Positions 15,800-63,232 are shown, counted from the first letter of the stretch. The stretch: DNA of 64,000 bases from Rheinheimera sp. SA_1 (GCF_001669775.1 NZ_LXWK01000015.1:434001-498000), one strand, 5' to 3'. Numbers and translations: made by a program. Notes: generated from the letters alone by a model not told the origin.

Positions 15800-15826
15800 C
15801 TGTAGTTTACAACACGTTATTTCAGT

Positions 15827-15903
15827 TCCTCAGTAGCTCAGCCGGTTAGAGCGGCGGACTGTTAATCCGTAGGTCGTTGGTTCGAGTCCAACCTGGGGAG
15901 CCA
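15827..15903 (+). tRNA. tRNA-Asn (GTT), copy 2
   Basis: Mature sequence identical to copy 1; a 27-nt spacer separates them. Confidence 0.97.
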
Positions 15904-15934
15904 ACTGAAATAACATCAAATAACCGCGTACAAT

Positions 15935-16011
15935 TCCTCAGTAGCTCAGCCGGTTAGAGCGGCGGACTGTTAATCCGTAGGTCGTTGGTTCGAGTCCAAC
16001 CTGGGGAGCCA
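15935..16011 (+). tRNA. tRNA-Asn (GTT), copy 3
   Basis: Mature sequence identical to copies 1 and 2; the 31-nt spacer before it differs from the first. No clear terminator follows. Confidence 0.97.
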
Positions 16012-41117: not shown

Positions 41118-41142
41118 GAACACCAAATTGCGCCAACGCGCT

Positions 41143-42738
41143 TTATTTCTCTTGAAGGTCTCTGCCGCATTCTCGTTGGTGGGCATTATGGTAACGATGC
41201 CTGTCAGCAAGCAAAAGCGTTTTCTCCGCAAGATAGCCGAATAAATTGCCGCTGTGTTTTGTAAGACGGAGCCGATAAAGCAACCAACGATGGAAAGGAA
41301 CAACAGTCAACAGTCTGTTTCTGTCAGTAAAATAATCCAGTACAGCACCGACCCTTTCCAAAGTTTTATGACGTTTGGGCTTTTTCGGTGGAGCCTGATA
41401 GCCAGGTAATAATTGTAACGAAAACTCGTTAACCCATTCCTGCCACAGTATCTGATTTAGCCTGAACTGCTGCGGAACTGCCTGCCAATAATTGACAAAA
41501 TCGCGTTGCCAGAATGGCATCCACCATTCAAGCTGAAAAAACTCATAATAACGATTTGAATTCACTATTAGTTTCGATTGGCGTTCCCTAAAATTCCAAG
41601 CTTCAGCCAGATCTGCAGCGTCGATACCAGATTGTTGTTCGGAAATCTGTATTAACTGGTCGCGTAGTTTTGCTTGTAATTTTAGTTTATCAGGACAATA
41701 TCGTCTGAGCTGATAATGAGTTTTCCACAAATAGTTCATAGCAACATCTTCTATCGTAGAACTGAGCGAGGTTGTATGTGGACGATGTGCACCACTGACA
41801 AAGTCCCCGGTATGTCCCGGGATAATCAGCGCATCCGATTGAATAATACCTTGGCCTGACAATATGCGAACGGCCGGAAAGACTTGGATATTAGGCACCG
41901 ATACGCCACTATGAACAAATAACGAATACTGCTCAAACTCGGCATCGAAGCGGAGTGAACTGAAAGTCAGCGAGTCGTAATAAACCGGATACCAAGTCAC
42001 ACCCAATTGATTGCAGAGATTACGAGCATTGACCAACTCCCAGCTATCAGCGGCACCAAACGTAAAGCAACAAATGTTGGTATACCCAGCTTGAAACAAA
42101 CTCAGCAATAACGCCTTGGAATCCAATCCGCCACTGAGCGGAACGACAATTTGCCGGCCGGCTGCTTTACTCATTAATTGCTGGGTTAACGAACACATGA
42201 TGGCTGATAATTCTTGTTTAAGGTCTGGCTTGGTCAATTGCCGCCCTGGCGTCGGCAAAAATTCAAAGCAACTTTCTATCGTGACTGCGCTACCATTCCA
42301 ATCTACACAACTTGCGGCAGGAACTTGTGACACACCAGCCATAGTCGTTGCGGCACCAGTGACATAACCCAATTGTAAAAACTCAGATCTGGATAGCGTA
42401 TCTGGTGAATTTAATCCCAATTGCGCCACAAGCAGTTCAATATCATCCGATATCCATAAATCGACAGCAGTAGAAACATAAAAGAGTGGATAACTACGTA
42501 ATCTATCACTGACAAGATAGACGTTGGTCGCGGTGCACCATATAAAAGAAAAAAATCCATCAAGAGATTCTAAATATGAAGTAAGCGTTTTTTCTGACAA
42601 TAATTGAAGTTGATTCAATAGAGCTTGTGGACTTAACAACTTGCCGTCTCGTATCGCTTGACCTGCACAGGTAAAACTGCAGTCAACAGTCTGATATTTT
42701 GTATATTTATGGGTTATGTTGATATTAGGTTGCAGCAT
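41143..42738 (-). CDS. Asparagine-synthetase-like amidotransferase lacking the N-terminal Cys
   Basis: A 531-residue protein with the asparagine synthetase layout. The N-terminal Ntn-hydrolase-like part (about 1-165) begins MLQPN and not MC, so it should not release ammonia from glutamine. The ATP-pyrophosphatase domain has the loop VVPLSGGLDSKALL and a later GHTGDFVSG. Such proteins may form an amide with another amine, as in lasso-peptide cyclases or beta-lactam synthetases, or decorate a polysaccharide. It overlaps the flippase gene by 14 nt, so it belongs to the surface glycan operon. Confidence 0.78.
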   Translation of the reverse strand: MLQPNINITHKYTKYQTVDCSFTCAGQAIRDGKLLSPQALLNQLQLLSEKTLTSYLESLDGFFSFIWCTATNVYLVSDRLRSYPLFYVSTAVDLWISDDIELLVAQLGLNSPDTLSRSEFLQLGYVTGAATTMAGVSQVPAASCVDWNGSAVTIESCFEFLPTPGRQLTKPDLKQELSAIMCSLTQQLMSKAAGRQIVVPLSGGLDSKALLLSLFQAGYTNICCFTFGAADSWELVNARNLCNQLGVTWYPVYYDSLTFSSLRFDAEFEQYSLFVHSGVSVPNIQVFPAVRILSGQGIIQSDALIIPGHTGDFVSGAHRPHTTSLSSTIEDVAMNYLWKTHYQLRRYCPDKLKLQAKLRDQLIQISEQQSGIDAADLAEAWNFRERQSKLIVNSNRYYEFFQLEWWMPFWQRDFVNYWQAVPQQFRLNQILWQEWVNEFSLQLLPGYQAPPKKPKRHKTLERVGAVLDYFTDRNRLLTVVPFHRWLLYRLRLTKHSGNLFGYLAEKTLLLADRHRYHNAHQRECGRDLQEK

Positions 42739-43990
42739 TGTCGGGGACTACCTGTGGACTAGAGTTTTTGGCGACAGCCTTAAAAGCTATCCCAATAATA
42801 ACAAGATTATGAATACAGCCTGCCGCACCGTACAATCCCAACGCCCACCAGACAGATTTGAAAACAATTGCCCCGGCAGCTATAGCCGAACACCTGATGA
42901 TAAAGGTAAAAATATTGAGGTAAAAACTAACTTTTTGCTGACGCAACACCATCAGTGTCTTTAATGCCGGTGCATTGAGGCATACAAGGAAATACCATGG
43001 CACTAACCACAAAGCATAGTGCCCAGCAGATTGCCATTCGTCACCAAACAAGAAAGCATAAATAGCTTCTGCATAAAGCCCCAACAATGAAAATGGCAAC
43101 AACAATACTATAAATAGTGCTCCGGTGCATTGTAACAAAAACTTACACAATACCCTTCTATTATCAAGCAATCGAGCGGCAAGTGGATAATAAACATCAC
43201 CAGCAGCTTTGTTGACCAGCATAGATGGCGCGACCAACAATAATACAGCGATGTTTAGAAAAGCGAGAACATCAAGCCCAAACCAGTAACTAAATAGCAA
43301 TAACGGAATGCTTTGTGACCAGGCATTAAACGCCAGCTGACTTGCCTGATACGTTGGAAAAACCGAGAATTGCTGGTAGGTTTGCTTTAGATCAGACCAG
43401 CGCCAACATAAATTTTTTTCAGTAGTTTTGGCTGCCGCCAAATAATATAAACACGCCAAAGCTACGGGTTGCAATATGGCCGTCACGAGCAGCCAATGTG
43501 CATCTGCTTGATAAAGCCCTAATAAGACACGGCTCATACAAAACAAAAATGCCACCGACAGCACGACCACAGCCTGCTGTTTTAAACGGCCAGCCAACAA
43601 ACATCTCTGCTCAGCCAGGCTAGCAATCCCGGCGCCACATATTGCAATAAAAGGGCCGTACAGAAAAAGCGGATTGGCATTCTGGTAATAAAACCAATAC
43701 CCCCAAAACAATAGCTGCACGAGAGTGGCTGTGGTGATTGTGGCGAAGACGGCTAGTTTTGAAAGATATAGTCGTTGAGCTTCGTTATTTACGAGCGCTA
43801 ATGCTGAAGGAAAAGCGAGTGAAGCCCAAGGTAAAAACAACAACATGATTGCATTAAACTGAGCGAACGCCCCTAGCTCTGTTGCATTATAATTGCGGGT
43901 TAAAACCAGGTAACTAGCCAGCTGTAACAGCTGACTAAACAGCGCCACTCCAACCATTAAAACGGCTTGACGTTTGAACAGGCTGAACAA
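42725..43990 (-). CDS. Wzx-like polysaccharide flippase
   Basis: A 421-residue membrane protein with about 12 hydrophobic segments and few charged loops, consistent with the MOP-type flippases (Wzx/RfbX) that move lipid-linked oligosaccharides across the inner membrane. ELGAFAQFNAIMLLFLPWAS in the first half is typical in style, though the family is hard to prove by eye. It is the first gene of the operon running toward the WbpM-type gene. A terminator-like hairpin lies 30 nt upstream of its ATG. Confidence 0.75.
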   Translation of the reverse strand: MFSLFKRQAVLMVGVALFSQLLQLASYLVLTRNYNATELGAFAQFNAIMLLFLPWASLAFPSALALVNNEAQRLYLSKLAVFATITTATLVQLLFWGYWFYYQNANPLFLYGPFIAICGAGIASLAEQRCLLAGRLKQQAVVVLSVAFLFCMSRVLLGLYQADAHWLLVTAILQPVALACLYYLAAAKTTEKNLCWRWSDLKQTYQQFSVFPTYQASQLAFNAWSQSIPLLLFSYWFGLDVLAFLNIAVLLLVAPSMLVNKAAGDVYYPLAARLLDNRRVLCKFLLQCTGALFIVLLLPFSLLGLYAEAIYAFLFGDEWQSAGHYALWLVPWYFLVCLNAPALKTLMVLRQQKVSFYLNIFTFIIRCSAIAAGAIVFKSVWWALGLYGAAGCIHNLVIIGIAFKAVAKNSSPQVVPDNAAT

Positions 43991-44260: not shown

Positions 44261-44290
44261 AAAAAAAAACGGGCCTGATGGCCCGTTTTT
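44261..44290 (-). terminator. Rho-independent terminator of the S-layer-like gene
   Basis: AAAAACGGGCC / GGCCCGTTTTT perfect 11-bp arms with a 4-nt loop, then further T on the minus strand. It lies 14 nt after the stop of the surface protein gene. Confidence 0.9.
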
Positions 44291-44304: not shown

Positions 44305-45669
44305 TTATGGGTTAACAACTTTAGTAGCAACTACTGGTGAATCGTTGTTCACGATTGCACGCTCAGAAGTAGCATTGTCAACATAAGCAGAGTATACAGA
44401 AACTGAATCAGCTTTTACATCAGTGATTAAACGGATAGCAACTGTACCATTGATGAATGGAGTAGCAGCTTCAGCCATCTTCTGACGAATCACGCCTGCC
44501 AGTTTAGCAGTTGCTTTCGGGTGAGAAGTACCAACTGTTACGTTCGACAGAACTGGAACTGATTTACCAGTAACAGCATCTGTAGCCCATACGTCAGCAT
44601 AGATAGTACCAGTCTGTGAACCGTTGTTGGTCAGGTTAACAACTTGACTGAACAGTTTCTCACCAACAGTACCGTACACCATGTATGGAACAGTAACTAC
44701 TGAACCGTTTACAGTCCAAGCACCAGCATTCAGAGCAGCTTGAGTTAATGAAGCAGTAGATGCACCGTAACCATGTGTAGCAACTAAAGAGAACGAAGTT
44801 GGGTTAACTGCAACAGTGTCAGCACCCTGATCGATATCTAAAGTAAGAGTTGCGCCAGTTGTAGCAGCATTACACGCAAACGTATAGCTCGTTGCAGTGA
44901 TTGCTGGAGTTCCAACAACAGCACCAGCTGTACATACTGGAGCAGCAACAGTTGCGTCTTCAGCCCAAGAGAAATCGCCATTTACTACAAATGTAGTTGT
45001 GCCTTTAGCAACAGCGCTGGTGTCACCTGAGTTGTTGGTCAGACCAATAGTCAGCACGTCAGTAGTAACAGCACCAGTGAAAGCCTCACGGTCAGCAGCA
45101 ACATCTAAAACACCGTCAAAACGGTTTACAGCAGTGACAGCAGCAACAAACTGGTCACGAACGTTAAACAACGCGCCTGAAGTCAGATCAGCATCAGCGT
45201 TATATTCAACTGGTGTATCTAAAGCACTTGTAGATGTGCCCAGAGTAGCACCATAAGTTACGTTCACTTTACCCAGTGCTACTACGTCAGCACCCTTGAA
45301 CACGAGCGCTGTAGCGCCAGTGAAGGTGAAAGAACCATGAACAGCACCAGCGCCTGTAATTTCAGTTACACGATAAGTAGCTGAAGTAGCTGTCTGACCT
45401 GTACGGCCCAAGGTCACAGCGTTTGCGCCAGATGACGTGATGCTAAGAGGAGCAGTTTTCAAACCACCAGTGAAAGTAAAAGTAATTGTGTCGCCTACTG
45501 CGTAAGCAGCTTCAAGTGCAACAACTACGTTACCAGCAGTCAAATCACCAGCAGTAGAACCTTGTTTAGATACGTTTACTACGTTTGTAGTTACGTCAGC
45601 TGCGAAGGCCGAGAAGCCGAAGCCGGCTAATGCTGCAGCTACGAGAGTCTTTTTGAACATTGTCTTCAT
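44305..45669 (-). CDS. Abundant exported surface protein, S-layer-like
   Basis: A 454-residue exported protein, very rich in Thr, Ala, Val and Gly with few basic residues, a composition typical of S-layer or fibrous surface proteins. Signal peptide (KKTLVAAALAGFGFSAFAA) then a beta-rich body; the central region has just two Cys (about 30 residues apart), probably a disulfide. I use ATG 45669, which has GGAGA 8 nt upstream; the frame is open to 45711. A consensus-like promoter and strong terminator suggest high expression. From memory, Alteromonadales S-layer proteins such as Slr4 look similar, but I cannot verify homology. It directly follows the type II secretion genes. Confidence 0.65.
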   Translation of the reverse strand: MKTMFKKTLVAAALAGFGFSAFAADVTTNVVNVSKQGSTAGDLTAGNVVVALEAAYAVGDTITFTFTGGLKTAPLSITSSGANAVTLGRTGQTATSATYRVTEITGAGAVHGSFTFTGATALVFKGADVVALGKVNVTYGATLGTSTSALDTPVEYNADADLTSGALFNVRDQFVAAVTAVNRFDGVLDVAADREAFTGAVTTDVLTIGLTNNSGDTSAVAKGTTTFVVNGDFSWAEDATVAAPVCTAGAVVGTPAITATSYTFACNAATTGATLTLDIDQGADTVAVNPTSFSLVATHGYGASTASLTQAALNAGAWTVNGSVVTVPYMVYGTVGEKLFSQVVNLTNNGSQTGTIYADVWATDAVTGKSVPVLSNVTVGTSHPKATAKLAGVIRQKMAEAATPFINGTVAIRLITDVKADSVSVYSAYVDNATSERAIVNNDSPVVATKVVNP

Positions 45670-45681
45670 TAGAACATTCTC

Positions 45682-45697
45682 CAATTTCATGAAATTG
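45682..45697. promoter_or_regulatory. Palindrome in the leader of the S-layer-like gene
   Basis: CAATTTCATGAAATTG, a perfect 16-nt palindrome. On the transcript its last G is the first base of the GGAGA ribosome site. Confidence 0.6.
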
Positions 45698-45767
45698 AAA
45701 CTTATCGGCATCTTGCCTTAGTTTCTTGTTTTATAAAGAAGCTGGGGCAACCCAATTTCTAACCCAC

Positions 45768-45795
45768 ATTCTATTACCGCGACAGAGATTGTCAA
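45768..45795 (-). promoter_or_regulatory. Strong promoter of the S-layer-like gene
   Basis: On the minus strand perfect TTGACA, a 16-bp spacer and TAGAAT, with an A/T-rich tract upstream that could be an UP element. The predicted leader is about 90 nt. Confidence 0.75.
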
Positions 45796-45845
45796 CGATA
45801 AATTTTTAAAAAACCTCAAGAAAATCACAGCAACTTGTATAGAAG

Positions 45846-47945
45846 TTACTCAGTAAGCCGTAACAACGACATTTGTTGACTTAGCTTATCACTGATCGCC
45901 TGCCACTGAGTAGTATTATCTAAAACTTTTGGCGTTATCAAGATAATAAGCTCAGTCTTAGTCACGTTATCTTTTTCACTTTGAAATAACTTACCTAATA
46001 TCGGCAAGTCTGCTAGAAACGGCACCTTAGAGTGAGATTTGGTATTATTCTCCGACATCAGGCCTCCTAACAGGATGCTTTGACCACTCTGCGCTATGAC
46101 TTCAGTTTTTATACTACGTTCAAAAAAAGATGGGCTACCCGCAACTTGTACACCACCATCGACCGTGTTCGATATTTTCTGTTCAATCGCCATCACTACC
46201 AACCCTTGCGCGCTGATCGTCGGCGTCACTGAAAACTCAACACCGGTTTTCCGATAAGCAACTGTGGTGCTTTGGGTATCGGTACCAGGGTTGATCGTAG
46301 TGGTACCAACCGTTGGAATATCGGAACCAACACCAATGACCGCGTTAACACCATCACGCACGACAATCGAAGGGCTAGACAACAAATTAACCCGACTATC
46401 GGTTGCGGTGAGTTGCAAAAGAATTTTATCTAAGCCGTTATTGTAACCAATATTCAAGCCGCCTATTTTGGCGACGCCTAACGCCCCGGAAGTTCCCATA
46501 CCCAGCATGCCATTTCGAATTGCGAACTCGACTCCCATTGCAAACTCATCGGTTAATGTTACTTCGGCAATAGTCGCTTCTAACAAGATCTGTTTTGGCA
46601 TCACATCAAGGCGTTTTACCATAGGCAGAATGTTTTGGTACTTTTTACCTGTCGTGTAGAAAATCAATGAGTTCGAGCGGCTATCCACCGTCATCATCAG
46701 ATCATCGGTACTGACCTGAATATCATTTTGACTACCTGTCCCAGCACCTGGTCGCACATTGGCGCTATTTTGAGGTGTCGTCACTGGCATTTCTTGTGCC
46801 GACTGCGTATCTCGGGTTTGGTTTGCGCTGCTATTCTGTTGGCCGAATAACGCGCCTACCGACTCACCTAAGTCACTGGCACGGGCATAACGTGGATGAT
46901 AGATAAAATAACTTCTGGCGCTACCCTGGCTCGGTTGATCAAGTTTACTTGCCCAAAATTGCACGCGGTCAATATAAAGATCGTCGGCAGCAAACAGCGC
47001 TACAGCACCAATTTGCTCAAGGGGGATCACCACCATGTTGCGGTTGCCCGGTTTACCAATATCGACTGGTAGGCCTTCACTCAATAACAGCTCATTCAGT
47101 TGTTTAACAAACTCTTCGACTGAAATATAAGTTAACCGTAACAAACCGACGTGTTTACCTCTGGCTGCTGGCGCATCAAGGATGTTGAGCAAATCAAGGG
47201 CGCGCAATATCTCTGTGCGCTCGCCCTGAATTGAGTAAGCACTTTGCCCCTGAACTTCTTCCACTCTGGTATTGGTCAATTCGGTCAACACCCGTTCAAT
47301 TGACAAATCGCGGTTATATAAAATAGGGACTATTTGGGTGAGTGTACCTGGCATTTGCGGCACGTCATTTGGGTTTCGGCCAAAACCGAGGGCGATACTC
47401 GCGGTCTTCGCCTGTTCAGCTTTGTGAATATAAAAAACATCTTCCCGCTCGGTGATTGCCACTTGTTTATCAGCGAGGATCTGCATGGCCATGGTAAAAA
47501 GCTTCCGCGCACCCACCGGCGTTTGTACCTGCAGACTGACCTTTTGTCCGGTCGCTGCGACATCGTCAGCAATAACGTAGTTCACTTTAAGTAAATCACC
47601 AAAAACGAGGTGGATAAACTGAGCCAGTTCCATATTTTCAGCCGCGAGTTCAAGCTCACCTTGTTGGCTGAATTTACTGGTTAAATCCATCTGACCTGCA
47701 AATCGTCTTTGTTGTTGTTGTAGCGGCGTCAACGACTGATAACCAAGCGTACTGGAGTTTTCAATTTCAGAAACTACCGGCTGGTTAGTCTGTTCGGCAA
47801 AGTCATCACCATTCGCAATTCTGGATTGCTGAACTGAATAGGTTTTTGGATCGGAATTTACACAACCGCCGAGACAAAACGACAGCGCAATCGCAACCAC
47901 GATGCGACGACGGAAACCAATTACCTCTGAAACCAAAAAACTCAT
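45846..47945 (-). CDS. gspD: Type II secretion secretin GspD, lipoprotein form
   Basis: Outer-membrane channel of a type II secretion system. A lipoprotein signal ends in LGGC (Cys28). N domains follow (LELAAENMELAQFIHLVFGD start), then the secretin barrel with VNLLSSPSIVVRDG, VGVEF-type and GQSILLGGLMSEN, and LPILGKLFQ near the end. At 699 residues it matches GspD. A lipidated secretin may reach the outer membrane by itself, so no separate pilotin is required. It overlaps the small inner-membrane gene upstream by 4 nt; the S-layer-like gene is next downstream. Confidence 0.9.
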   Translation of the reverse strand: MSFLVSEVIGFRRRIVVAIALSFCLGGCVNSDPKTYSVQQSRIANGDDFAEQTNQPVVSEIENSSTLGYQSLTPLQQQQRRFAGQMDLTSKFSQQGELELAAENMELAQFIHLVFGDLLKVNYVIADDVAATGQKVSLQVQTPVGARKLFTMAMQILADKQVAITEREDVFYIHKAEQAKTASIALGFGRNPNDVPQMPGTLTQIVPILYNRDLSIERVLTELTNTRVEEVQGQSAYSIQGERTEILRALDLLNILDAPAARGKHVGLLRLTYISVEEFVKQLNELLLSEGLPVDIGKPGNRNMVVIPLEQIGAVALFAADDLYIDRVQFWASKLDQPSQGSARSYFIYHPRYARASDLGESVGALFGQQNSSANQTRDTQSAQEMPVTTPQNSANVRPGAGTGSQNDIQVSTDDLMMTVDSRSNSLIFYTTGKKYQNILPMVKRLDVMPKQILLEATIAEVTLTDEFAMGVEFAIRNGMLGMGTSGALGVAKIGGLNIGYNNGLDKILLQLTATDSRVNLLSSPSIVVRDGVNAVIGVGSDIPTVGTTTINPGTDTQSTTVAYRKTGVEFSVTPTISAQGLVVMAIEQKISNTVDGGVQVAGSPSFFERSIKTEVIAQSGQSILLGGLMSENNTKSHSKVPFLADLPILGKLFQSEKDNVTKTELIILITPKVLDNTTQWQAISDKLSQQMSLLRLTE

Positions 47946-48424
47946 AATGACTCTCTTTCCTGTGGGCTTGAATTGTCAAACAAACGCAATTTTATTGATC
48001 GATCATGATGTTGCATCTCGACTAGTTTGCCTTGCACGCGAGAAACAGAGATGCCGGAATATTGTTCGCCTTCCATCAGTTTAATAATTTCATCTTTATT
48101 GTTTTTAATGTCCTTAGCGGACATCACAGCAGTGTACTGCCCCGATTTGAAGAAAATCGCCAGTAAAGTAAATTTATATTGTGCCAGAACAGCGGAATCA
48201 AAATTTTGGCTCTGCGCATTTTCACCCTTTGTTGACGATTTAAAATTTGCGATCAGTTTTTTCAATTCTGCAGGTATGGCTGTTGGAACTACGACTTCTG
48301 GTATCGATGCTTCAGTCATTTGCAGGTCTTTTGCATCGACATCCAGATAAATTCGGCTGAAAAAGTCAGCACTGAAAATCATCGACAATATACAAATCGT
48401 AATGAAGATTGCAGACTTATTCAC
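47942..48424 (-). CDS. Small inner-membrane protein with a GspC-like homology region
   Basis: A 160-residue protein: one N-terminal membrane helix, a variable linker, then YKFTLLAIFFKSGQYTAV, a turn with GEQYSGISVSRVQGKLVEM, and SIKLRLFD. That order resembles the HR domain of GspC, which contacts the secretin. No PDZ domain is present. Its position next to gspM-like and gspD genes suits a clamp linking inner and outer membrane parts. The assignment is by layout and pattern, not strong motif identity. Confidence 0.5.
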   Translation of the reverse strand: MNKSAIFITICILSMIFSADFFSRIYLDVDAKDLQMTEASIPEVVVPTAIPAELKKLIANFKSSTKGENAQSQNFDSAVLAQYKFTLLAIFFKSGQYTAVMSAKDIKNNKDEIIKLMEGEQYSGISVSRVQGKLVEMQHHDRSIKLRLFDNSSPQERESL

Positions 48425-48966
48425 GGTGCCACCACTTGATAGAGAAGCTCTATATTAAAAGTAACATTCGTTTTTTTATCCAGAGCCAGGTTGCCACGCC
48501 AGTCAAAATTCATCGAGATAACCTTTAACCCGAGTTGCTGATCTAACTGGTGGCCAAAAGATACAATGTCTGTTAACGCTCCCGAAACACGGAACGTAAA
48601 AAGACCTCGTTGTAAGCCAGAGGGCTGATCATTTCCCTGCACACCCCAGTTAAAAAACTCCAACTGCAGGTTGTGATCCGCAACTCTTTTGTTGAAATCC
48701 TGTTGTATGCGCAAGCCTAGTGTCTGTTCGTCTTCGGCAACCAGCAATAAAGCAAGCTGGTCACTATACACCTTTTTGAGTTGCACTAGGTCAGTGCTGA
48801 CCTGCTCTTTTTGCTCCAGCAAACGTTCAATTTTCATCTGGCGTGTTAATACGGTAGTTGTTTCCAGAACTTTCTCTTGTTGGGCGTCATACCAAGGTAC
48901 CCACAAAAACTGCAAACTCGCCAAAACCAGAATAACTGCAATCATCAAAGGCTTATTTTTTAGCAT
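48421..48966 (-). CDS. gspM: GspM/PilO-like inner-membrane assembly protein
   Basis: A 181-residue bitopic protein: short cytoplasmic end, one membrane helix (about 8-24), a coiled-coil (about 30-75), then a ferredoxin-like periplasmic domain (LGLRIQQDFNKRV onward). This is the GspM/PilO architecture; primary sequence is weakly conserved in the family. It overlaps the gspL-like gene by 14 nt. Confidence 0.65.
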   Translation of the reverse strand: MLKNKPLMIAVILVLASLQFLWVPWYDAQQEKVLETTTVLTRQMKIERLLEQKEQVSTDLVQLKKVYSDQLALLLVAEDEQTLGLRIQQDFNKRVADHNLQLEFFNWGVQGNDQPSGLQRGLFTFRVSGALTDIVSFGHQLDQQLGLKVISMNFDWRGNLALDKKTNVTFNIELLYQVVAP

Positions 48967-50101
48967 CTTCGGCCTCTAATCGGAATTCAATTTTAATACT
49001 GAACGAGTCCAAATCGCGTTCTCGGCGAGTTGGGTCAGTAAAGGTTGCTCTGCTCACATAGGATAACTTCGTGAGCGCTTCGATAAGTCCGGTAGCTACT
49101 GGTGTTGTGCCTTTTACAATCAGATGGCCATTTTGCCACTGAAATGAGGAAAGGCTCACACCATTGTCTAACAAATGCAATAATGTTGACCACACAGGCC
49201 AGGTATTTTCATGCTGCAACAACAGCTGCTGAGCCTTATTTAGTTTTAATTGTAATTCTTCGACCTGTTGTTTTTCAGTCATAACCAGATCTACATCCGA
49301 ACCAAAACTTGCTACTATTTTTGAAGCTGAGCTCTCGGTCCAATGCAGATAAAAACTTGAAAGTGAGAGGTAACAAAGCAAACCTGCAACAGTTGATACT
49401 CCAATTTCTCGCCACGGTAATGGCTGAGCTTGCTGTCGTTTATAGCGGATGAAATTCAGCAACGACGTAGGAGATATACTCTTAAGCCCTTTCATCAACA
49501 ATGCAGGTTTATCGCTAGGCTGAATGTCAATTTCCTCAATATCTTGCGGGACGCCATTTACCATAGAAAAGGTGTCAAGATCTCCACAAATTATGTTTGA
49601 AATTTGTGAGCTGAAATGTGCTGCCCTGACATACAAAAACCACGACTGCCCCTCGTCTCTAATGACCGACTTACAATGCCGGTCTTGTAAAGCTGCATGG
49701 AGAACCACGGACTCAGGCAGCAGAATACTAAAGGCAGGTAATGCAGATATTAATTTTGTGTCAAAAATAAAGGTTTTCACCAAACTTTGATGATTAGCTG
49801 TCTTCTGAATTAGATGAATACAGTCACGCCCTTCAAACTGTTGATTTAACACAGCCTTTAAGTCAGAGCTACTTTCGATTGGATACACTTTTTCAAACTC
49901 GAGATATGATCGACGCGCCGCAATGTAGACCAGGCCTTTACTGGGACTGGCCTGGGTGCCGATGCGCCACTTATAAGATTCGACAGCAAATACATAACAA
50001 TCTTCAAGTGTTTGAAATCGAAGCATTGGAGTGATGAAACGAGCGACAATGCCAGCCAACTTACTGCTGAACATCGGTGATCTATCTGGATTAGTTGACA
50101 T
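48953..50101 (-). CDS. gspL: GspL/PilM-PilN-like inner-membrane protein
   Basis: A ~380-residue protein with a cytoplasmic actin-like region, one membrane segment near residue 250 (GVSTVAGLLCYLSLSSFYL), a coiled-coil (VEELQLKLNKAQQLLLQ), and a small periplasmic fold, the layout of GspL, which recruits the GspE ATPase. I use ATG 50101, overlapping gspK by 11 nt; the frame is open to 50161. Confidence 0.65.
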   Translation of the reverse strand: MSTNPDRSPMFSSKLAGIVARFITPMLRFQTLEDCYVFAVESYKWRIGTQASPSKGLVYIAARRSYLEFEKVYPIESSSDLKAVLNQQFEGRDCIHLIQKTANHQSLVKTFIFDTKLISALPAFSILLPESVVLHAALQDRHCKSVIRDEGQSWFLYVRAAHFSSQISNIICGDLDTFSMVNGVPQDIEEIDIQPSDKPALLMKGLKSISPTSLLNFIRYKRQQAQPLPWREIGVSTVAGLLCYLSLSSFYLHWTESSASKIVASFGSDVDLVMTEKQQVEELQLKLNKAQQLLLQHENTWPVWSTLLHLLDNGVSLSSFQWQNGHLIVKGTTPVATGLIEALTKLSYVSRATFTDPTRRERDLDSFSIKIEFRLEAEDAKK

Positions 50102-50984
50102 GGCTATATTTTTGATATTCCCAGAAATAAAACGGAATTGTTTCGTAAGGATTAATGACAACCGTCAATTTACGCGTTAGCTTAACATCGTTAAGAACGG
50201 CTGTGAAGCTTAGCTCCAGTGCGTTGCCGGGCAAAGGACTGAAACCCTGATCATATTCCAACCCCGTCAGTTCCAAAAAACTTTCCGGGGTCAATTTGCC
50301 TTCGTTTCTCAAAGAAAGAACCAGCGACAAGGAAGGTTCGCTAATGTACAACGCCATCTGTTCAGCTGTCATCGCAGCTGGATTCAGAGTTTTTGATGGA
50401 TAAGTCGTAAGATTCGGAGCTAACTGCCGAAAAATCGTGTCATCTACACCTTGAATAAACCGAAGTTCGTCGACTAATTGCAGACCGGCATTTCTGATCG
50501 GGAGTGGTTCAGTAGATTCAATATAACGCTGCATATATTCAGGGATAACAGCACGAGGCAATATAAGTACATTCAAATCATTTGACGCCTTCGTGGCTTC
50601 GGCAGCGTTAATACCATGCAAATCAAATATATATTTCATTTGTTTAATATTATAAATAGAAAAAAAACCCGCTACATCACGTATTTGAACTTCACCATGT
50701 GGGATAGCAATAGACTCCCCATAAAAATTCCAGCGATTTGGCAACTCCAGCACACTGCTTTGCTGCTTGCGACTATGTGTCAGTAACGAAAACAACAGCT
50801 CAGATTCCTGACTGTGCAGTCTAACCATCGCGTCAGCTCGGTCTTGAATTTTCTCAGCTTCGATGAGTTGCGACTTTGAATTAAAGACCACTGAAATCAT
50901 GAGTACCGACAACATCACGCTTAGCAATAATACCTGTATCAGCGCTACACCACGGTGTCGCCCCACGTCAATGGAAGTAGTCAA
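50091..50984 (-). CDS. gspK: GspK-like minor pseudopilin
   Basis: A 297-residue pseudopilin with the leader GRHRGVALIQVLLLS. Val stands where the classic Phe follows Gly, as in GspK. The large domain contains VAGFFSIYN and, later, LVDELRFIQGVDD, typical of GspK. It caps the pseudopilus tip with I and J in canonical systems. It overlaps gspJ by 4 nt. Confidence 0.78.
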   Translation of the reverse strand: MTTSIDVGRHRGVALIQVLLLSVMLSVLMISVVFNSKSQLIEAEKIQDRADAMVRLHSQESELLFSLLTHSRKQQSSVLELPNRWNFYGESIAIPHGEVQIRDVAGFFSIYNIKQMKYIFDLHGINAAEATKASNDLNVLILPRAVIPEYMQRYIESTEPLPIRNAGLQLVDELRFIQGVDDTIFRQLAPNLTTYPSKTLNPAAMTAEQMALYISEPSLSLVLSLRNEGKLTPESFLELTGLEYDQGFSPLPGNALELSFTAVLNDVKLTRKLTVVINPYETIPFYFWEYQKYSHVN

Positions 50985-51658
50985 AAAGCCTCCGTCGCAA
51001 CTTTTGCAGCAACAGCCTCTGCCCGGCTTGCAATGCTGGCATATATTGGAAAACCGGCAATGTTGATCTGTACTTTTTCAGGATGAGTAAAAGCTGTTAA
51101 CCCGTCGTGCACATGAAGCCACCTGCGCCGGTCAATTATTTGATCATTTTCATCCATTTCGACTGGTTCGCTTGCATTCGGAATTGCAAAATATTGAAAC
51201 TCGATATCTTTAATATCACGCAAAACGACCAGTCGCTCTGAAAAATTTAACCGCTGATTTGCCCCAACCAGCCATGTATTTTTCAGGCTAGCTTCTTCAT
51301 AGACAAGACGATATTGTCCTACATCATCCAATTCAGTAAAAATTCTAATCACTGCCGGATAGCCAGTATTGACGATTGGATTGGTCGTTATCGCGGTAAA
51401 TCCATCTTGCTTGCCGAGAAAATAAAAACCAACTTTTTCTTTTTCATTAACCAAATACGGCACGATGCCATGTAATGCGCTGTTAAATAAATCAAAAGTT
51501 TTGAGTTGGGTAAATGCAATACTGACGTTGTCTTTTTCCTTCCGCCACTGTTTGTCGTACAGTTGGTAGCCGAACATCGCCATCACCAACATCATCAACA
51601 TGATGCTGGTCGCAATTAACAATTCAATCAGAGTAAACCCTTGTTGGTGCTTACTCAT
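50981..51658 (-). CDS. gspJ: GspJ-like minor pseudopilin
   Basis: Type IV pilin-like leader HQQGFTLIELLIATS, then a 200-residue globular part. At 225 residues it is in the GspJ size range, and its position between I and K supports it. It overlaps gspI by 8 nt. Confidence 0.75.
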   Translation of the reverse strand: MSKHQQGFTLIELLIATSIMLMMLVMAMFGYQLYDKQWRKEKDNVSIAFTQLKTFDLFNSALHGIVPYLVNEKEKVGFYFLGKQDGFTAITTNPIVNTGYPAVIRIFTELDDVGQYRLVYEEASLKNTWLVGANQRLNFSERLVVLRDIKDIEFQYFAIPNASEPVEMDENDQIIDRRRWLHVHDGLTAFTHPEKVQINIAGFPIYASIASRAEAVAAKVATEAF

Positions 51659-52085
51659 CTTGTGGCACCGCCATTTTTAACCAAGCTATTTCTTTGAAGT
51701 TAAATTCTCGCGTTTTGCTAAGGTACTGCAACTGCAAATTGACGTTATAAAGTCTAAACCGTGGTTGATAAGTCACAGTTTGTAAATTTTCGACAATCAT
51801 CGACTCAGGCGGCGGCAGAAAGTGTTCTGTTGTTGCAGACCAGCGAAACTCGACCTGCTGAAAAGCACCATCACCATGAAGTTCTGCGATAGGATTGTCC
51901 CGAATTTGCTGTCGGATCGTATCGAGAATAAAAGGCAATGGCGCATGTAACAACACCACATTTTCAGCTTGCTTACTGTTGATTCTCGATTGACTAAATG
52001 TATTTGCCGTTAAAGAAAGTACCGTCAAAAGAATCACTGAAGCTATTAATACTTCCACCAAAGTAAAACCCTTTGACTTCGTCAT
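51651..52085 (-). CDS. gspI: GspI-like minor pseudopilin
   Basis: Prepilin leader KSKGFTLVEVLIASVILL (the TLVEVLIA form typical of GspI) and a small 144-residue body. It overlaps gspH by 4 nt. It should bind J and K in the pseudopilus tip. Confidence 0.75.
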   Translation of the reverse strand: MTKSKGFTLVEVLIASVILLTVLSLTANTFSQSRINSKQAENVVLLHAPLPFILDTIRQQIRDNPIAELHGDGAFQQVEFRWSATTEHFLPPPESMIVENLQTVTYQPRFRLYNVNLQLQYLSKTREFNFKEIAWLKMAVPQDE

Positions 52086-52534
52086 AATACATTCGTACCT
52101 GTTCTTTCGCGGTTGGTATTAAACCGGTACTCCACTTTTTTTGACCGAATAAAAGCATCCACCCCAGCGGACATTACATAACCATGATGATTAAAATGAA
52201 TTTCTTGTTTAGGGAAAAATACATAAGTGTACTGATAAGTTTTTTCTTTCGTAGCATTCCCCTTGGTAAGGCTTAGCTCGGTACCATCGAGGTGCAAAAT
52301 ATAACTTTCGCCGTCCAGATAGGCCTCTTTAGCGACCAACTCGAATACCCGTTGTACTTCCATCCATTCCGCAAAAGCTTTACTTCGTTCAACCTGAGTC
52401 TGAGACAATGGGCCAACCAACATCATGACTACACTTATCACAGCCATGACCACGATCAGCTCTATCAACGTAAAACCACGGCTGCCTTTACTAAAAAGTA
52501 GGGTTTTACTGTGTAGCTGAGGCGAAATAAACAA
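52082..52534 (-). CDS. gspH: GspH-like minor pseudopilin
   Basis: A 150-residue protein with a longer leader (about 20 residues) before GSRGFTLIELIVVMAVIS. The body is beta-rich with an RVFELVAKEAYLDGESY helix/strand region. The assignment rests on gene order (F-H-I-J-K). Confidence 0.72.
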   Translation of the reverse strand: MFISPQLHSKTLLFSKGSRGFTLIELIVVMAVISVVMMLVGPLSQTQVERSKAFAEWMEVQRVFELVAKEAYLDGESYILHLDGTELSLTKGNATKEKTYQYTYVFFPKQEIHFNHHGYVMSAGVDAFIRSKKVEYRFNTNRERTGTNVL

Positions 52535-52536
52535 GA

Positions 52537-53739
52537 TCAGATCCCAATGTCGGTAACAGTCGTGATACTAAGCATCATGATCACCACAACACCCCCAACT
52601 AAACCGCCCATCACCACAATCAACAAAGGTTCCAGTAAACTGGTAAGACGGGTTACCCACTGCGAAAACTCGCGCTGACTACGTAGGGCAATTTCCTGAA
52701 AAATGCGTCCCAACTGCCCACTTTCCTCACCAACAGCAAGCAAAGACGCAAAAAAATCAGGGAACAATGCACTTTGCCTTAAACAAACTGACAATAACTC
52801 GCCTTGTTTTACTTTCGAAATGGCAATATTAATCTCACGTCTAACCTCGCCATTTTTAATATTATTACTCGAAAGATCCAGTGCGCGATCGATAGCGACT
52901 CCGGCGTTAAGCATCATCGATAAACCAGAATTAAAACGAATTCGCTCAACCAACAGCACTGCAGTGCGGAACATTGGCAAGCGGATTATAATTTTTTGTA
53001 AAGCGGCCTGAGTTGCGGGTTGTCGCATTAACGACGCTGAAGCTATACCAGTCACAATCAGTCCAAGTAGAAGATACCATTGATAATTAATCAGCCAAGT
53101 CGACATTCCCAACAACATCGAGGTGTACCAAGGCAGTTCCAGATTACCTTCAAATAAACCAGACATATTTGGTACGACATAATTAAAAATAAACACCACT
53201 GACAACAAACAAACTACGAGGATGATCATTGGATACATTAATGCGGTAATTATTTTCTGCTGCAATTCGCGCCTGAAGACCAGGTCAGTAGCCAGCTCAC
53301 GAAATACGTTTGCAAGATTCCCGGTTGCTTCACCGATACCCACCAGATTAATGTAAAGCGGATCGAATAAGCTACCGGTGGCTGCGAGTGCTTGCGACAG
53401 TTGCTTGCCGCTTTTCAGTTCAGAGCTAAGTTTTGTAAGGAGCTTGATCAGGGCAGGTTTTTTGCTGGTTTTCCTCAGTAGCTCAATCCCTTTGTCTATC
53501 TTAAGACCTGCATCCAGCAACACTGATAACTCAGACGTCAGGAACTCAATATCAGCCAAACCAAGTTTTTCTTCACCAAATATCGACTGTTGTTGTTGAC
53601 CGCTGACTGCAGTAATCGACTTCACCATAATCCCACGCGCACCGAGGGTTGCTCTTGCTTCCGCTATTGATGCAGCGTCAATATCACCGGAAGCTTTGGC
53701 ACCGGACTGATCAAATCCCTGATAAGTAAAAGATGCCAT
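52537..53739 (-). CDS. gspF: Type II secretion inner-membrane platform GspF
   Basis: A 400-residue integral membrane protein with two repeated cytoplasmic helical domains (ELSVLLDAGLKIDKG and GLSMMLNAGVAIDRA) and three membrane segments (about 165-190, 215-240, 370-395). GIGEATGNL and AVGEESGQLGRIF are the paired family signatures. The start shares the last base of the gspE stop. Confidence 0.92.
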   Translation of the reverse strand: MASFTYQGFDQSGAKASGDIDAASIAEARATLGARGIMVKSITAVSGQQQQSIFGEEKLGLADIEFLTSELSVLLDAGLKIDKGIELLRKTSKKPALIKLLTKLSSELKSGKQLSQALAATGSLFDPLYINLVGIGEATGNLANVFRELATDLVFRRELQQKIITALMYPMIILVVCLLSVVFIFNYVVPNMSGLFEGNLELPWYTSMLLGMSTWLINYQWYLLLGLIVTGIASASLMRQPATQAALQKIIIRLPMFRTAVLLVERIRFNSGLSMMLNAGVAIDRALDLSSNNIKNGEVRREINIAISKVKQGELLSVCLRQSALFPDFFASLLAVGEESGQLGRIFQEIALRSQREFSQWVTRLTSLLEPLLIVVMGGLVGGVVVIMMLSITTVTDIGI

Positions 53740-55397
53740 TAGCCTGCGACCCTCAAAACTTCTTCAATGGTTGTTGAGCCTTGCAGTACTTTTAACATAC
53801 CGTCTTCGAGCAGATTGCGGCCTCCACGATTTTTATTTACTTCGCGGGCTTTCAGAATAAAATTTTCGTCTTTGGGTATATGGCGGATTTCATCATCACA
53901 GCGTAGGTACTCAATCATCGCCAAACGACCTTTATAACCAGTGTGGTTACATAAGTCACAACCAACGGCTGTTCTGACATTAACCGGCGAGATTTCAAAT
54001 TTTGTCGCTATATTGGCTAGTCGATATTTATCTACAATTTCTTCCGTATTAGCTGCCGGAACACTGCAGTGTGGACATAGACACCGAACGAGCCGCTGCG
54101 CCACGATCGACACTAAAGCGGCATTAAGCAAAAACTCTTCGACGCCTAAATCTAACAATCGGGTGTAAGCACTGGGCGCGTCATTGGTGTGTACCGTCGA
54201 AAAGACCAAATGTCCGGTGAGCGCTGATTGCATAGCGATGCTGGCCGTTTCTTTATCACGGATTTCACCCAGCATAATAATGTCCGGATCTTGCCGGACG
54301 ATACTACGTAAACCAGCCGCAAAATCAAAACCAATATCGGACTGAACCTGAACCTGGTTGATCCCGGTAAGCTGATACTCAACCGGGTCCTCAAGGGTAA
54401 TAATCTTAACTTCCGGGCTATTCAGTCGGTTCAAAAACGTATAGAGACTGGTTGTTTTACCCGAGCCTGTAGGACCTGTTAATAACACGACCCCTGCAGT
54501 TGTTTTAATGTCTTCAAGAATTTTCTGTTCAATGTCCGCAGAAATGCCTAAAACTTTCATGTCGTAATTAATCGCATCTTTACGCAAAAAACGCATTACA
54601 ACGCTCTCACCATCATTCAACGGCAACGCTGACACCCGGATATCCAGATCGATACCACCAATCCGCATTTCGATTTTTCCATCCTGCGGCCTGCGCTTTT
54701 CGGCAATATCCATACTGCTAAGAATTTTTAATCTTGTGGTGACAGGTAATACCAGGTGCGTTGGAACTGTATCAATATCCTGTAGCACCCCATCAATACG
54801 GAAGCGGACTTTCGCTTTGCCCTGATTTGGCTCTATATGCATGTCAGACGCCCGCATACGTAGAGCTCGTGTGATCAAAGAGTTCAGTAGGTTTACTGTT
54901 GGAGCTTCAGCAGCGAGCTCGCGAAGACGCGCTTCCTCGACCGAATTTAAGGCTGCGGAATCAGCAAAATTGTCGGAAAGCTCAGACTTACTACGCAACA
55001 GATTAAATTGATCTTGATTGACTATTTTGATAGTAAAATCAATGTTATGCGCCGTAATAATTTCCTGTGCATCCTTGTTAAACGGCGCATAGGTTGCAAA
55101 ACAAAATTGATCACTTTCAACACTAAAAGGTAACCAGCCCCGGTCATACAATTCACCTAGGGCCAGTGCTTTACAACGTTCAGGAAAAACCCAATCAGCT
55201 AAATCTTCATCATTTAAGTATGGCAAATCAAGCAGTTTTGCATACAACTCTGGCAAAACCTCTGTTGATAAACTGCCCATACTGATCAGAATATTTTCCA
55301 GCTGCCCACTGTACTTCAACTGATAACTTTTGGCTTTTTCCACTTCAGCCCGGGAAACACCAAATTGTTCTTCAAGCAGGGATGCCAGATCTATCAT
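53739..55397 (-). CDS. gspE: Type II secretion ATPase GspE
   Basis: Hexameric secretion ATPase, 552 residues. N-terminal N1 domain (about 1-110), Walker A GPTGSGKTTSLY (about 310-321), Asp box region ASDMHIEP, Walker B DPDIIMLGEIRD and the His-box STVHTNDAPSAYTRL. A tetracysteine zinc motif is visible in CLCPHCSV and CDLCNHTG. It overlaps gspG by 4 nt. Confidence 0.93.
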   Translation of the reverse strand: MIDLASLLEEQFGVSRAEVEKAKSYQLKYSGQLENILISMGSLSTEVLPELYAKLLDLPYLNDEDLADWVFPERCKALALGELYDRGWLPFSVESDQFCFATYAPFNKDAQEIITAHNIDFTIKIVNQDQFNLLRSKSELSDNFADSAALNSVEEARLRELAAEAPTVNLLNSLITRALRMRASDMHIEPNQGKAKVRFRIDGVLQDIDTVPTHLVLPVTTRLKILSSMDIAEKRRPQDGKIEMRIGGIDLDIRVSALPLNDGESVVMRFLRKDAINYDMKVLGISADIEQKILEDIKTTAGVVLLTGPTGSGKTTSLYTFLNRLNSPEVKIITLEDPVEYQLTGINQVQVQSDIGFDFAAGLRSIVRQDPDIIMLGEIRDKETASIAMQSALTGHLVFSTVHTNDAPSAYTRLLDLGVEEFLLNAALVSIVAQRLVRCLCPHCSVPAANTEEIVDKYRLANIATKFEISPVNVRTAVGCDLCNHTGYKGRLAMIEYLRCDDEIRHIPKDENFILKAREVNKNRGGRNLLEDGMLKVLQGSTTIEEVLRVAG

Positions 55398-55795
55398 TGC
55401 AAAACAATATCCGCATTGTCATCGGCGCCACCAACTCGGCCATCTTTCCCATAAGACATTAAAGAGAATGTCTTGCCGTCGATGCCAGGCACTGTATAAA
55501 CATAAGGATTACCCCATGGGTCCAACGGAATGTCCTTTGGCAAATAAGGACCATCCCAGTTTTTCTTACTGCTTTTGATCAATTCGTCGAGATTTTCCGG
55601 ATGTTGGCCTAAATCAAGACGATAGGTATCCAGTGCAGTTTCGATTAATTTTAACTGAGTCTCAGCCGTCTTAATCTTTGACGAATCAACTTTTGAAAAC
55701 ATTTTTGGTGCTACCAGGGAAGCAAGTAACCCAAGGATAACCAGGACTATTAACAGCTCAATCAAGGTAAAACCTTTCATTTTACTTACTTTCAT
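55394..55795 (-). CDS. gspG: Major pseudopilin GspG
   Basis: A 133-residue main pseudopilus subunit. The prepilin leader is MKVSKMKG with cleavage before FTLIELLIVLVILG. The C-terminal part has DPWGNPYVYTVPG and FSLMSYGKDGRVGGADD, the calcium-binding GspG signature. First gene of the secretion cluster. No prepilin peptidase (GspO) gene is present nearby, so it must share one encoded elsewhere. Confidence 0.93.
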   Translation of the reverse strand: MKVSKMKGFTLIELLIVLVILGLLASLVAPKMFSKVDSSKIKTAETQLKLIETALDTYRLDLGQHPENLDELIKSSKKNWDGPYLPKDIPLDPWGNPYVYTVPGIDGKTFSLMSYGKDGRVGGADDNADIVLQ

Positions 55796-55832: not shown

Positions 55833-56672
55833 CTAAATATCGTAACCAATTTTACGCAGTAAATACACCTTTAACGCGACCAGCATCTGGCTATAAGGCG
55901 CTGCTTTCAATAACGCCAGCAATCCTGGCCGCTGAGTGTATAACAACTGATAAAACCTTTGACTAGCTTTTTGAGATTCGTTCATCAAATGCTGATGTTT
56001 ATTAAATAAGTACTCATAACCCTGCCTACGACGCATATGATTAGAGATCCTTTCTGAACCATGGTCCTGATGAACAATATAACTTGTTTGATGGCAGCGC
56101 TGACCAGACCCGAAACGTTCCACCAGCCGGATCCAAGTGTCATAATCCTGACAAGACGGCAGATTAATGTCGAAGCCGCCAATGTCTCGCAAATAATATG
56201 TTTTCGTAAGAATTTGATTTCCAACAACATTAGCAAATAACAAAGCGTTCAAGTCAATCTCACGCGCACCTTTGTTGCTGGTAAGGATTTGACCGCTGGC
56301 AGTTTTGATGATGTATCCGGAGCTCACAAACGACCGGGTTGGATTATTTTGGAACAGTTCGAGTAACGACTCAATTCGCTCTGGTGTAAATTCATCATCG
56401 TCGTCCAGACCTGCCAAAAACTCGCCACTGGCTATCGCTATGGCGCGATTACGCGCCGCACAAGCACCTACGGGTTCGTTTTGTAAAATGACACTAATTC
56501 TCGGGTCTAATTGAGAAAGCTGCATCACTTGCTGTTGGATAACGGCATCTGAACCATCGTCGACGACGATTATCTCCAGGTTCTTATGCGTCTGTGCCAG
56601 ACAACTGAGCACCGCACGTTTGAGTAAATCGTATCTGTTACGGGTTGGAATATAGACTGTCACTAACGGCAT
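55833..56672 (-). CDS. Family 2 glycosyltransferase
   Basis: A 279-residue GT-A type transferase: VTVYIPTRNRYDLL at the start, VVDDGSD (first Asp pair), GACAARNRAI and the metal-binding LDDDDEF. It has no membrane segments, so it acts at the cytoplasmic face. The sugar specificity is unknown. It ends 37 nt before the gspG start, so glycan and secretion genes may share a transcript. Confidence 0.88.
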   Translation of the reverse strand: MPLVTVYIPTRNRYDLLKRAVLSCLAQTHKNLEIIVVDDGSDAVIQQQVMQLSQLDPRISVILQNEPVGACAARNRAIAIASGEFLAGLDDDDEFTPERIESLLELFQNNPTRSFVSSGYIIKTASGQILTSNKGAREIDLNALLFANVVGNQILTKTYYLRDIGGFDINLPSCQDYDTWIRLVERFGSGQRCHQTSYIVHQDHGSERISNHMRRRQGYEYLFNKHQHLMNESQKASQRFYQLLYTQRPGLLALLKAAPYSQMLVALKVYLLRKIGYDI

Positions 56673-56894
56673 CTTGAAACCTGACTTCCAGATCCAGTAT
56701 ACGACCGTGCCACGATTAAATGTTTCACTAGCAATTACTCTGGAAGTTATTAAAAAATTACTTTCGCAAGGGGGCGCTATTCTACTGCCATCTCGAGATT
56801 CTGCAACCGAAGTAGCAATATCAAACCTTGCTCGCCAGCCTGTGAACCTACACAGACACTTAAGTCCCGAAAAATTACGTTATACCACATCACT

Positions 56895-57911
56895 TCAGCA
56901 ACTGTCCTTACCTGCTCGATAATGATGTGCCAAATACAACAACGGTGAATATGCCAATATCAGGGCAATTGCACCATCTAAGTCATAAAAAACTACCAAC
57001 CAGCTCCAAGGTGCCAGCCAGCACAGGTTAATGAGGCAAACCCCGTAACTGACAGGCCAGTGTTTCCCAAAACGCAATGCAGCATGTTGATATGCATGAG
57101 AACGATGGGCTTGATAAAATTTCATTCCCCGCATTGAACGTGCGACTAAGGTGTAGGTAGCATCAACGATAAAAACACCCAGCATAATGAGCCAGGCCCA
57201 CAACAAGTCAGCAGATACATTCGCCGATAACAGAACCAGCGCCGCAATACTCAAGCCGACAAAACCGCTACCAGCATCCCCCATAAATATTTTTGCTGGC
57301 GGATGATTCCAGATAAGAAAACCGGTGACACAACTCGCTAAACCCAGATGTAGCAGCAGCAAGTAATCATGACGATTTCCAAAATAAACCAGCAATACCA
57401 TAACGATACAAACAGACACGGCTTCAATTGCTGCAATACCGTCAATACCATCCATAAAATTGTAAAGATTAAGCACCCAAACGACACCAAGTACTGCCAG
57501 AATATAGGCGAGTTGGCCAAAATCAATTTGATAGCCAAACATCACCAACTCTGGCAATGGCCCTGCCACAAAAACCACTATTGATGCAGCTGTAAAATGT
57601 ACCATCAAGCGCAATGATGCCTTCACATGACCGTGATCATCAAGAAAACCGATAAACGCGACCAGTATACCACTCAGGACTAATCCCAAAGCCATCGGCC
57701 ATGACATGAAATTTAAGCCAGCAATGACTGATGTAAACGCCAAATAACAAATAACGACTGCAAGTCCACCACCGCGCGGAGTCGGTATCTTGTGAGAACT
57801 ACGTTGATTTGGAACGTCAAGGACATTCCGCTTCACGGCGTAAGCACGCAGGATTGCGGTTAGCAACCAGCTTAGAAATATCAGGAGCACATATACCCAT
57901 GGCTTTAACAT
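56895..57911 (-). CDS. WecA/WbpL-type undecaprenyl-phosphate sugar-1-phosphate transferase
   Basis: Starts a surface glycan by moving a sugar-1-phosphate onto the lipid carrier. A 338-residue membrane protein with about ten helices. Signatures: PTPRGGGLA, the Asp pair in GFLDDHG, NLYNFMDGIDGIA, and FMGDAGSGFVG with a later His-rich loop HRSHAYQHA. It overlaps the epimerase gene by 7 nt. Confidence 0.9.
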   Translation of the reverse strand: MLKPWVYVLLIFLSWLLTAILRAYAVKRNVLDVPNQRSSHKIPTPRGGGLAVVICYLAFTSVIAGLNFMSWPMALGLVLSGILVAFIGFLDDHGHVKASLRLMVHFTAASIVVFVAGPLPELVMFGYQIDFGQLAYILAVLGVVWVLNLYNFMDGIDGIAAIEAVSVCIVMVLLVYFGNRHDYLLLLHLGLASCVTGFLIWNHPPAKIFMGDAGSGFVGLSIAALVLLSANVSADLLWAWLIMLGVFIVDATYTLVARSMRGMKFYQAHRSHAYQHAALRFGKHWPVSYGVCLINLCWLAPWSWLVVFYDLDGAIALILAYSPLLYLAHHYRAGKDSC

Positions 57912-63136: not shown

Positions 63137-63232
63137 AAAAAATTCAACTCCACAGTATTCCCACTGCACTTTTGTATTAAAGTATTATCCAGAAAAGCAA
63201 AGGATCTTCAGGAAAACCGAGCATCCAGCTGT

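Follow-up and report, generated by a model that had tools for sequence, protein, structure and literature searches.

A candidate self-contained S-layer cassette in Rheinheimera: slr4, a structured leader and an adjoining type II secretion system

The genome of Rheinheimera sp. SA_1 carries, within a stretch of 64,000 nucleotides (GCF_001669775.1, NZ_LXWK01000015.1:434001-498000; hereafter the window, in which positions are counted from the first letter), a gene for a surface-layer (S-layer) protein of the Slr4 family, immediately beside a complete-looking gene cluster for a type II secretion system (T2SS). According to Ali et al. 2020, Slr4 of Pseudoalteromonas tunicata forms a square S-layer, as established by microscopy and knockout, and a T2SS cluster lies directly upstream of slr4 in several species, for which a dedicated T2SS is proposed (PMC7821379); both the pairing and the proposal are restated by AnnoView 2024. 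The idea of a dedicated exporter was therefore already published in 2020, and the locus in the window is a further example of it.

The slr4 gene and its neighbouring secretion cluster

The slr4 gene (44305..45669, minus strand) encodes a protein of 454 amino acids (aa) with a signal peptide and a mature mass of about 43 kDa by composition. The product matches PF19526 (Slr4) over the entire profile (positions 1-370 of 370; E 2.7e-93, 313.6 bits against a cut-off of 25), so that the S-layer-like identity proposed by the initial annotation stands, this being the family in which an S-layer has been demonstrated by microscopy and knockout. The same annotation had described an exported Thr/Ala/Val-rich protein, and the composition agrees (A 16%, T 15%, V 13%). 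By analogy with the characterised homologue, the protein would form an S-layer in this organism. slr4 is single-copy in the 5.16-Mb genome, shows the strongest codon bias among the window genes tested (effective number of codons, Nc, 35.9 versus a median of 51.9), is probably highly expressed, and is followed by a terminator-like hairpin (44265..44290, minus strand) with an 11-pair stem and then a T run. The start codon, placed at 45711 in the initial annotation, is most likely at 45669, because the Shine-Dalgarno sequence GGAG lies 9 nucleotides (nt) before it and because the upstream in-frame codons fall in a leader conserved as nucleic acid. Two related loci show variants of the gene. In L041/L042 (G375) Slr4-family genes stand three in tandem, and two of the three have a TTTCATGAAA leader of their own (see below); in L066 (G052, coinciding with L074) slr4 appears as two open reading frames (ORFs; 294 + 217 aa), as if frameshifted or interrupted, with both leader and T2SS present.

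A sequence search of the PDB returned no solved relative of Slr4. The AlphaFold model, built with 35 homologues, has a predicted local distance difference test (pLDDT) of 86 and a predicted template modelling score (pTM) of 0.79, and places two immunoglobulin (Ig)-like beta-sandwiches (residues ~20-171 and 173-320) before a C-terminal domain. The predicted sandwiches resemble those of surface adhesins and shaft pilins (for the first, Z 8.6 with a root mean square deviation of 3.0 over 127 residues), with modest Z values that indicate a common arrangement, not kinship. The model of Slr4 does not resemble the RsaA-type beta-helix that was put forward in 2020 on the basis of threading; RsaA is absent among the fold matches to the model, an absence that is in itself no argument against a beta-helix fold. 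The locus of P. tunicata D2 thus shares with that in the window the protein family and the T2SS adjacency, and differs in its host, the one in the window being Rheinheimera-type, and in the model proposed for Slr4, Ig-like here and beta-helical there (PMC7821379).

The adjoining cluster consists of eleven minus-strand ORFs (45846-55795) which, as initially annotated, are tightly packed in the order G-E-F-H-I-J-K-L-M-C-like-D: neighbours overlap by 4 (G/E), 1 (E/F), 4 (H/I), 8 (I/J), 4 (J/K), 14 (L/M), 4 (M/C) and 4 (C/D) bases, and F and H are separated by a gap of 2. The major pseudopilin gene gspG (55394..55795; TIGR01710, 134 bits, above cut-off) is followed by gspE, for the secretion ATPase (53739..55397; TIGR02533, E 3.3e-153, and the GspE tree), and gspF, for the inner-membrane platform protein (52537..53739; PF00482, E 3.5e-53). 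The gspH, gspI and gspJ positions (52082..52534, 51651..52085 and 50981..51658) are occupied by minor pseudopilin genes, each with a prepilin signal (PF07963, E 2e-8 for H and 9.6e-8 for J), H and J being named also from position and I from a weak XpsI match (E 8.8e-7). Next come gspK (50091..50984; NF037980, E 8e-14, below cut-off), gspL (48953..50161), gspM (48421..48966; position and a weak XpsM match, E 1.1e-4), a candidate gspC-like gene (47942..48424) and gspD (45846..47945; PF00263, E 2.3e-42), for the secretin, a predicted lipoprotein (lipobox with GGC) that would form the outer-membrane channel. gspL is assigned by position, by its co-occurrence with slr4 and by its sole profile match, to PilN (E 3.7e-4, under the curated cut-off); its true start may be an internal ATG near 50101, which would bring its overlap with gspK from the 71 bases listed to 11. 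Profiles are therefore strong for D, E, F and G, which place the T2SS core (secretin, ATPase, platform and major pseudopilin) within one cluster, and weak for K, M and the XpsI-like I; H, I and J are recognised mainly via the prepilin signal and, with the weak GspK match, make up the minor pseudopilin set.

Taken alone, the 160-aa single-span product of the gspC-like gene matches no family convincingly. Its place and size fit GspC, with only weak matches of the homology region (HR) type: among 15 orthologues there are two weak T2SSC matches and single matches to the related PilP and HofP, and hhalign against the genome's own GspC gives a probability of 5.6%, with a short alignment within the expected HR region. 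No prepilin peptidase gene lies inside the cluster; the pseudopilins would probably be processed by the genome's one above-cut-off prepilin peptidase, encoded beside pilB.

A structured leader before slr4

The gap between gspD and slr4 contains, in this order and on the minus strand, a promoter, a hairpin of variable sequence, the motif TTTCATGAAA and the Shine-Dalgarno sequence. The promoter (45768..45795, TTGACA-16-TAGAAT, 11/12) confirms the initial view that the gene has a promoter of its own. A sigma-70-like promoter scoring at least 10/12 is shared by 34 of the 45 homologous leaders, versus 4.9% of shuffles. The hairpin (45697..45725), identified by its fold z and by covariation, has an outer stem GAAAC/GTTTC and an inner stem GGCA/TGCC. 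It borders on the palindrome CAATTTCATGAAATTG (45682..45697), whose core TTTCATGAAA (45685-45694) stands directly before the Shine-Dalgarno GGAG (45679-45682). The core is present in 45 of the 49 slr4 leaders, and the base pair that flanks it is G-C, A-T or T-A, with zero mismatches in the 45; one of the four leaders without it, L115, reads TTTCTAGAAA and keeps the palindrome.

Several observations argue for structure upstream of the motif. The 37 nt that precede it have a mean fold z of -3.17, with z < -2 in 37 of 45 leaders. In the 11 alignable leaders a 12-pair helix has a covariation score of 0.474; shuffling lowers it to 0.260, and sliding the structure to 0.15 or less. These values are to be read knowing that the comparison with shuffles is inflated by relatedness and that the slid control is biased towards a structure taken from one of the sequences; the firmer part of this evidence is the 15 cells in which both sides have changed. 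RNAalifold returned no consensus pairs on all 40 leaders because the hairpin varies in sequence and length. A covariance model made from the 11 found, in 1.8 Mb, 19 places at E <=0.1, all of them slr4 leaders, two being read from the palindrome's opposite strand, and nothing in 20 control regions. In this genome a 17-20 nt leader pattern has one occurrence, at slr4, and 11 of the 15 genomes that match it in our sample of the order do so at slr4. We also considered TTTCATGAAA as the mark of a wider regulon and rejected it, given that single occurrence and the four non-slr4 matches in 395 genomes, where about 3 are expected by chance; the two that were inspected precede unrelated genes. Rfam gave no credible match for the window leader or for six homologous loci, and our literature search found no earlier description of the leader, none of the matches listed for the 10-mer being on S-layers.

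What could the element do? Its position suggests a role in stabilising an abundant mRNA and/or in the control of translation, and the palindrome would also fit an RNA-binding regulator or a DNA operator. In the last of these readings TTTCATGAAA would be the binding site of a transcription factor and not part of an RNA element. In its favour, the motif is a perfect palindrome, is invariant over genera and forms its own mini-hairpin in the minimum-energy folds of just 5 of 45 leaders. Against it, one mostly has to go 70-120 nt downstream from the conserved promoter to reach TTTCATGAAA, its spacing to the adjoining Shine-Dalgarno is nearly constant, and in most leaders it comes after the hairpin, where covariation is seen whenever the leaders can be aligned. 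We therefore regard a DNA operator as unlikely, if still worth keeping in mind, and favour a structured mRNA leader.

Is the secretion system devoted to Slr4?

The genome encodes four secretins and six PilT/GspE-type ATPases, and the T2SS beside slr4 is not its only one: a second, complete gspC-D-E-F-G-H-I-J-K-L-M-N operon is present on another contig (L031), near a gene for a 1192-aa subtilisin-like protease (read from sequence), and the general export job is therefore covered outside the slr4 cluster. Within the genus, slr4 and the cluster gspL are present in the identical 6 of 22 genomes, an overlap with a chance of about 1 in 75,000 for independent genomes, which the relatedness of the genomes makes optimistic. 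Across the order, 18 of 395 sampled genomes encode Slr4, and the synteny extends to all of them, with a T2SS adjacent in 18/18. The converse count, which took the ATPase as its starting point and a named collection of genomes as its sample, gave 47 Slr4-type gspD loci with enough downstream sequence, 44 of which have a match to the Slr4 hidden Markov model (one weak, L084, 18.8 bits); of the remaining three, L077 has a Pfam Slr4 match (E 4e-19), L087 encodes an exported protein that is unmatched but preceded by the same leader, and L089 shows a rearrangement. In L057/L058 (G075) the T2SS is inverted with respect to slr4 and internally rearranged, gspD lying between gspH and gspI, and is still adjacent; G151 also has an inverted T2SS cluster with adjacency kept.

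In a tree of GspE proteins, the 56 Slr4-type sequences (56/56) form one clade, with a Shimodaira-Hasegawa-like approximate likelihood-ratio test (SH-aLRT) support of 96, which joins at 100 with a sister group lacking a recognisable Slr4. General GspE, PilB, MshE-like proteins, SpsE of Aeromonas salmonicida and the ATPase of G231 all fall outside, the exact places of the last two being unsure in a tree that is quick and has some long branches. The secretin also sets this system apart: a lipobox-like cysteine near the N-terminus is present in 53/53 Slr4-type GspD proteins (49 by pattern, 4 by eye) and, by pattern, in the secretins of the sister group, and none was seen in this genome's general GspD. 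HxcQ is a lipidated, self-piloting secretin. By analogy, the Slr4-type secretin fits a self-piloting lipoprotein and, being a lipoprotein, would probably need no separate pilotin.

We conclude, with considerable confidence, that the locus is a self-contained S-layer cassette in which Slr4 is exported by a devoted, adjoining T2SS. Slr4 would be made in large amounts from its own promoter via the structured mRNA leader, would cross the inner membrane by Sec and fold in the periplasm, and would then be pushed out through the T2SS encoded immediately upstream; outside the cell it would assemble into a lattice, probably held by surface polysaccharide made by flanking genes. The adjoining T2SS very probably serves Slr4 alone; both the export by this route and its exclusivity are what we infer from the pairing, and the exporter for one abundant surface protein put forward in the initial annotation gains support from the co-occurrence of T2SS and slr4.

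Two other explanations have to be weighed. T2SSs often handle many cargos, and our examination of cargo covered the adjacent gene only, so this could be a second general-purpose system that exports other enzymes besides Slr4, the latter being just its most abundant cargo; given the complete general operon elsewhere, the joint presence or absence of cluster and slr4 in the genus and a T2SS clade bound to Slr4, we find this improbable. That Slr4 is exported differently, for instance through the general T2SS, while the cluster merely co-travels on an exchangeable polysaccharide island, would suit the patchy presence of slr4 within the genus and the location of the cassette in polysaccharide loci, which are often exchanged. 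It is nevertheless very improbable, since slr4 and T2SS stay adjacent and in order across many genera in which the flanking sugar genes differ, and since the Aeromonas S-layer T2SS is reported to be required for S-layer export.

Some points weigh against a devoted exporter: (i) the identities of the gspC-like gene, gspL and gspM derive mainly from position. (ii) Our literature search found no report of the deletion of this secretin, nor of this T2SS exporting Slr4 in any Slr4 species. (iii) Adjacency and co-inheritance could also stem from joint transfer as a genomic island. (iv) In G231 a Slr4-family protein lies beside a different T2SS lineage, so that the partnership is not strict at depth.

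Sister cassettes, polysaccharide loci and other S-layer systems

The post-gspD slot appears to be filled, also in the sister T2SS group, by proteins that share a C-terminal domain. Four sister loci have an exported protein of 580-663 aa encoded directly after gspD (L126:19514-21448, L132:19363-21354, L134:19825-21567 and L125:19745-21655; one is cut by the locus end), with no convincing Pfam match. Its C-terminal 112 residues align with the Slr4 C-terminus (hhalign probability 92%, E 7e-7), hhalign being the single source for this kinship, as the AlphaFold model of the sister protein (four sequences) has a pLDDT of 31. From sequence, the shared domain is a candidate export or anchoring module. 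In L128, L131, L133 and L135, sister clusters have no exported protein after gspD, and sugar/polysaccharide-type genes come directly next.

The cassette in the window also lies among polysaccharide genes, all on the minus strand. Downstream (38873..43990) are a polysaccharide pyruvyl transferase gene (38873-40045), nitroreductase-like and asparagine-synthase-like genes, and a gene for a membrane protein (42725-43990) read as flippase-like by inspection only, with no Pfam match; upstream (55833..61154) are genes for glycosyltransferases of families 2, 4 (WecA-like) and 1 and for an epimerase. Ten polysaccharide-gene probes found at least one flank match at 18/18 slr4 loci (103/411 ORFs), compared with 0/20 for 20-kb control regions taken from that group of genomes (0/280 ORFs); five of the slr4 loci supplied the probes, and the remaining 13/13 still matched. 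According to the part of the Slr4 paper available, Gram-negative S-layers attach to surface molecules such as lipopolysaccharide (PMC7821379), and it is therefore plausible that the flanking locus is the source of the S-layer anchor. In that available text the terms O-antigen and glycosyl are absent and no leader element is reported. Two asparagine-synthase-like genes (41143-42738 and 61196-63169), both part of the polysaccharide region, bracket the cassette and, farther away in the window, three tandem tRNA-Asn genes lie within 300 bases (15723-16011).

The Aeromonas precedent invoked by the initial annotation holds as a good functional analogy, with no convincing sign of a close relationship. 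Both A. hydrophila AH-1 and A. salmonicida have their sps genes and vapA embedded in the O-antigen cluster, and in AH-1 a 166-aa ORF2 precedes SpsD (PMC4413209, PMC4483657). The likeness is striking: within an O-antigen locus, the genes E to M are accompanied by a small ORF and by D, and the S-layer gene comes last. We located the A. salmonicida locus (G424) via published vapA primers, whose product was exactly the published 696 bp. SpsE is 46% identical to the window GspE over 397 aa and lies outside the Slr4-type clade, on a long branch; no TTTCATGAAA leader precedes vapA, and a direct homology between Slr4 and the A. salmonicida VapA is not convincing (hhalign probability 21%). Because the A. 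salmonicida system falls outside the clade, the resemblance looks convergent. G231 (L069/L070), from the genus of A. salmonicida, has its Slr4-family protein (E 1.9e-14) encoded downstream of rml-like sugar genes and next to a third T2SS lineage. With SpsE outside the clade, VapA not convincingly homologous and G231 carrying that third lineage, the pairing of S-layer and T2SS seems to have arisen, or to have been reassorted, more than once.

Two further systems invite comparison. Paracidovorax citrulli NpdA/gsp1 is likened here by description: it too combines an S-layer protein and a linked gsp cluster with a second gsp cluster in the genome (PMC10765051), and differs in the S-layer protein and in the host group. 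The weak XpsI- and XpsM-like matches and the lipidated secretin recall the Xps/Hxc-type T2SSs, in a tree built without Xps or Hxc sequences.

Taken together, these data make it likely that S-layer synthesis is set, perhaps in coordination with export, by a structured leader not described before and present once per genome, at slr4. This leader would belong to a wider type of cassette, whose T2SSs are related, lie within or close to polysaccharide loci and are each paired with a surface protein sharing the Slr4 C-terminal domain. As far as could be checked, the leader element, the systematic polysaccharide linkage of the slr4 cassette, the lipoprotein-secretin clade with its putative second cargo family and the proposed revision of the Slr4 fold are new.

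S-layer proteins are among the most abundant of the cell, which makes a dedicated exporter and an mRNA leader natural control points for the whole coat. The strict pairing of slr4 and its T2SS, beside a separate general system, renders T2SS cargo recognition testable with one cargo and one machine, and the leader element offers a small target, shared across the lineage, on which strong and regulated expression can be studied. Finally, the polysaccharide setting suggests where the lattice may be anchored.

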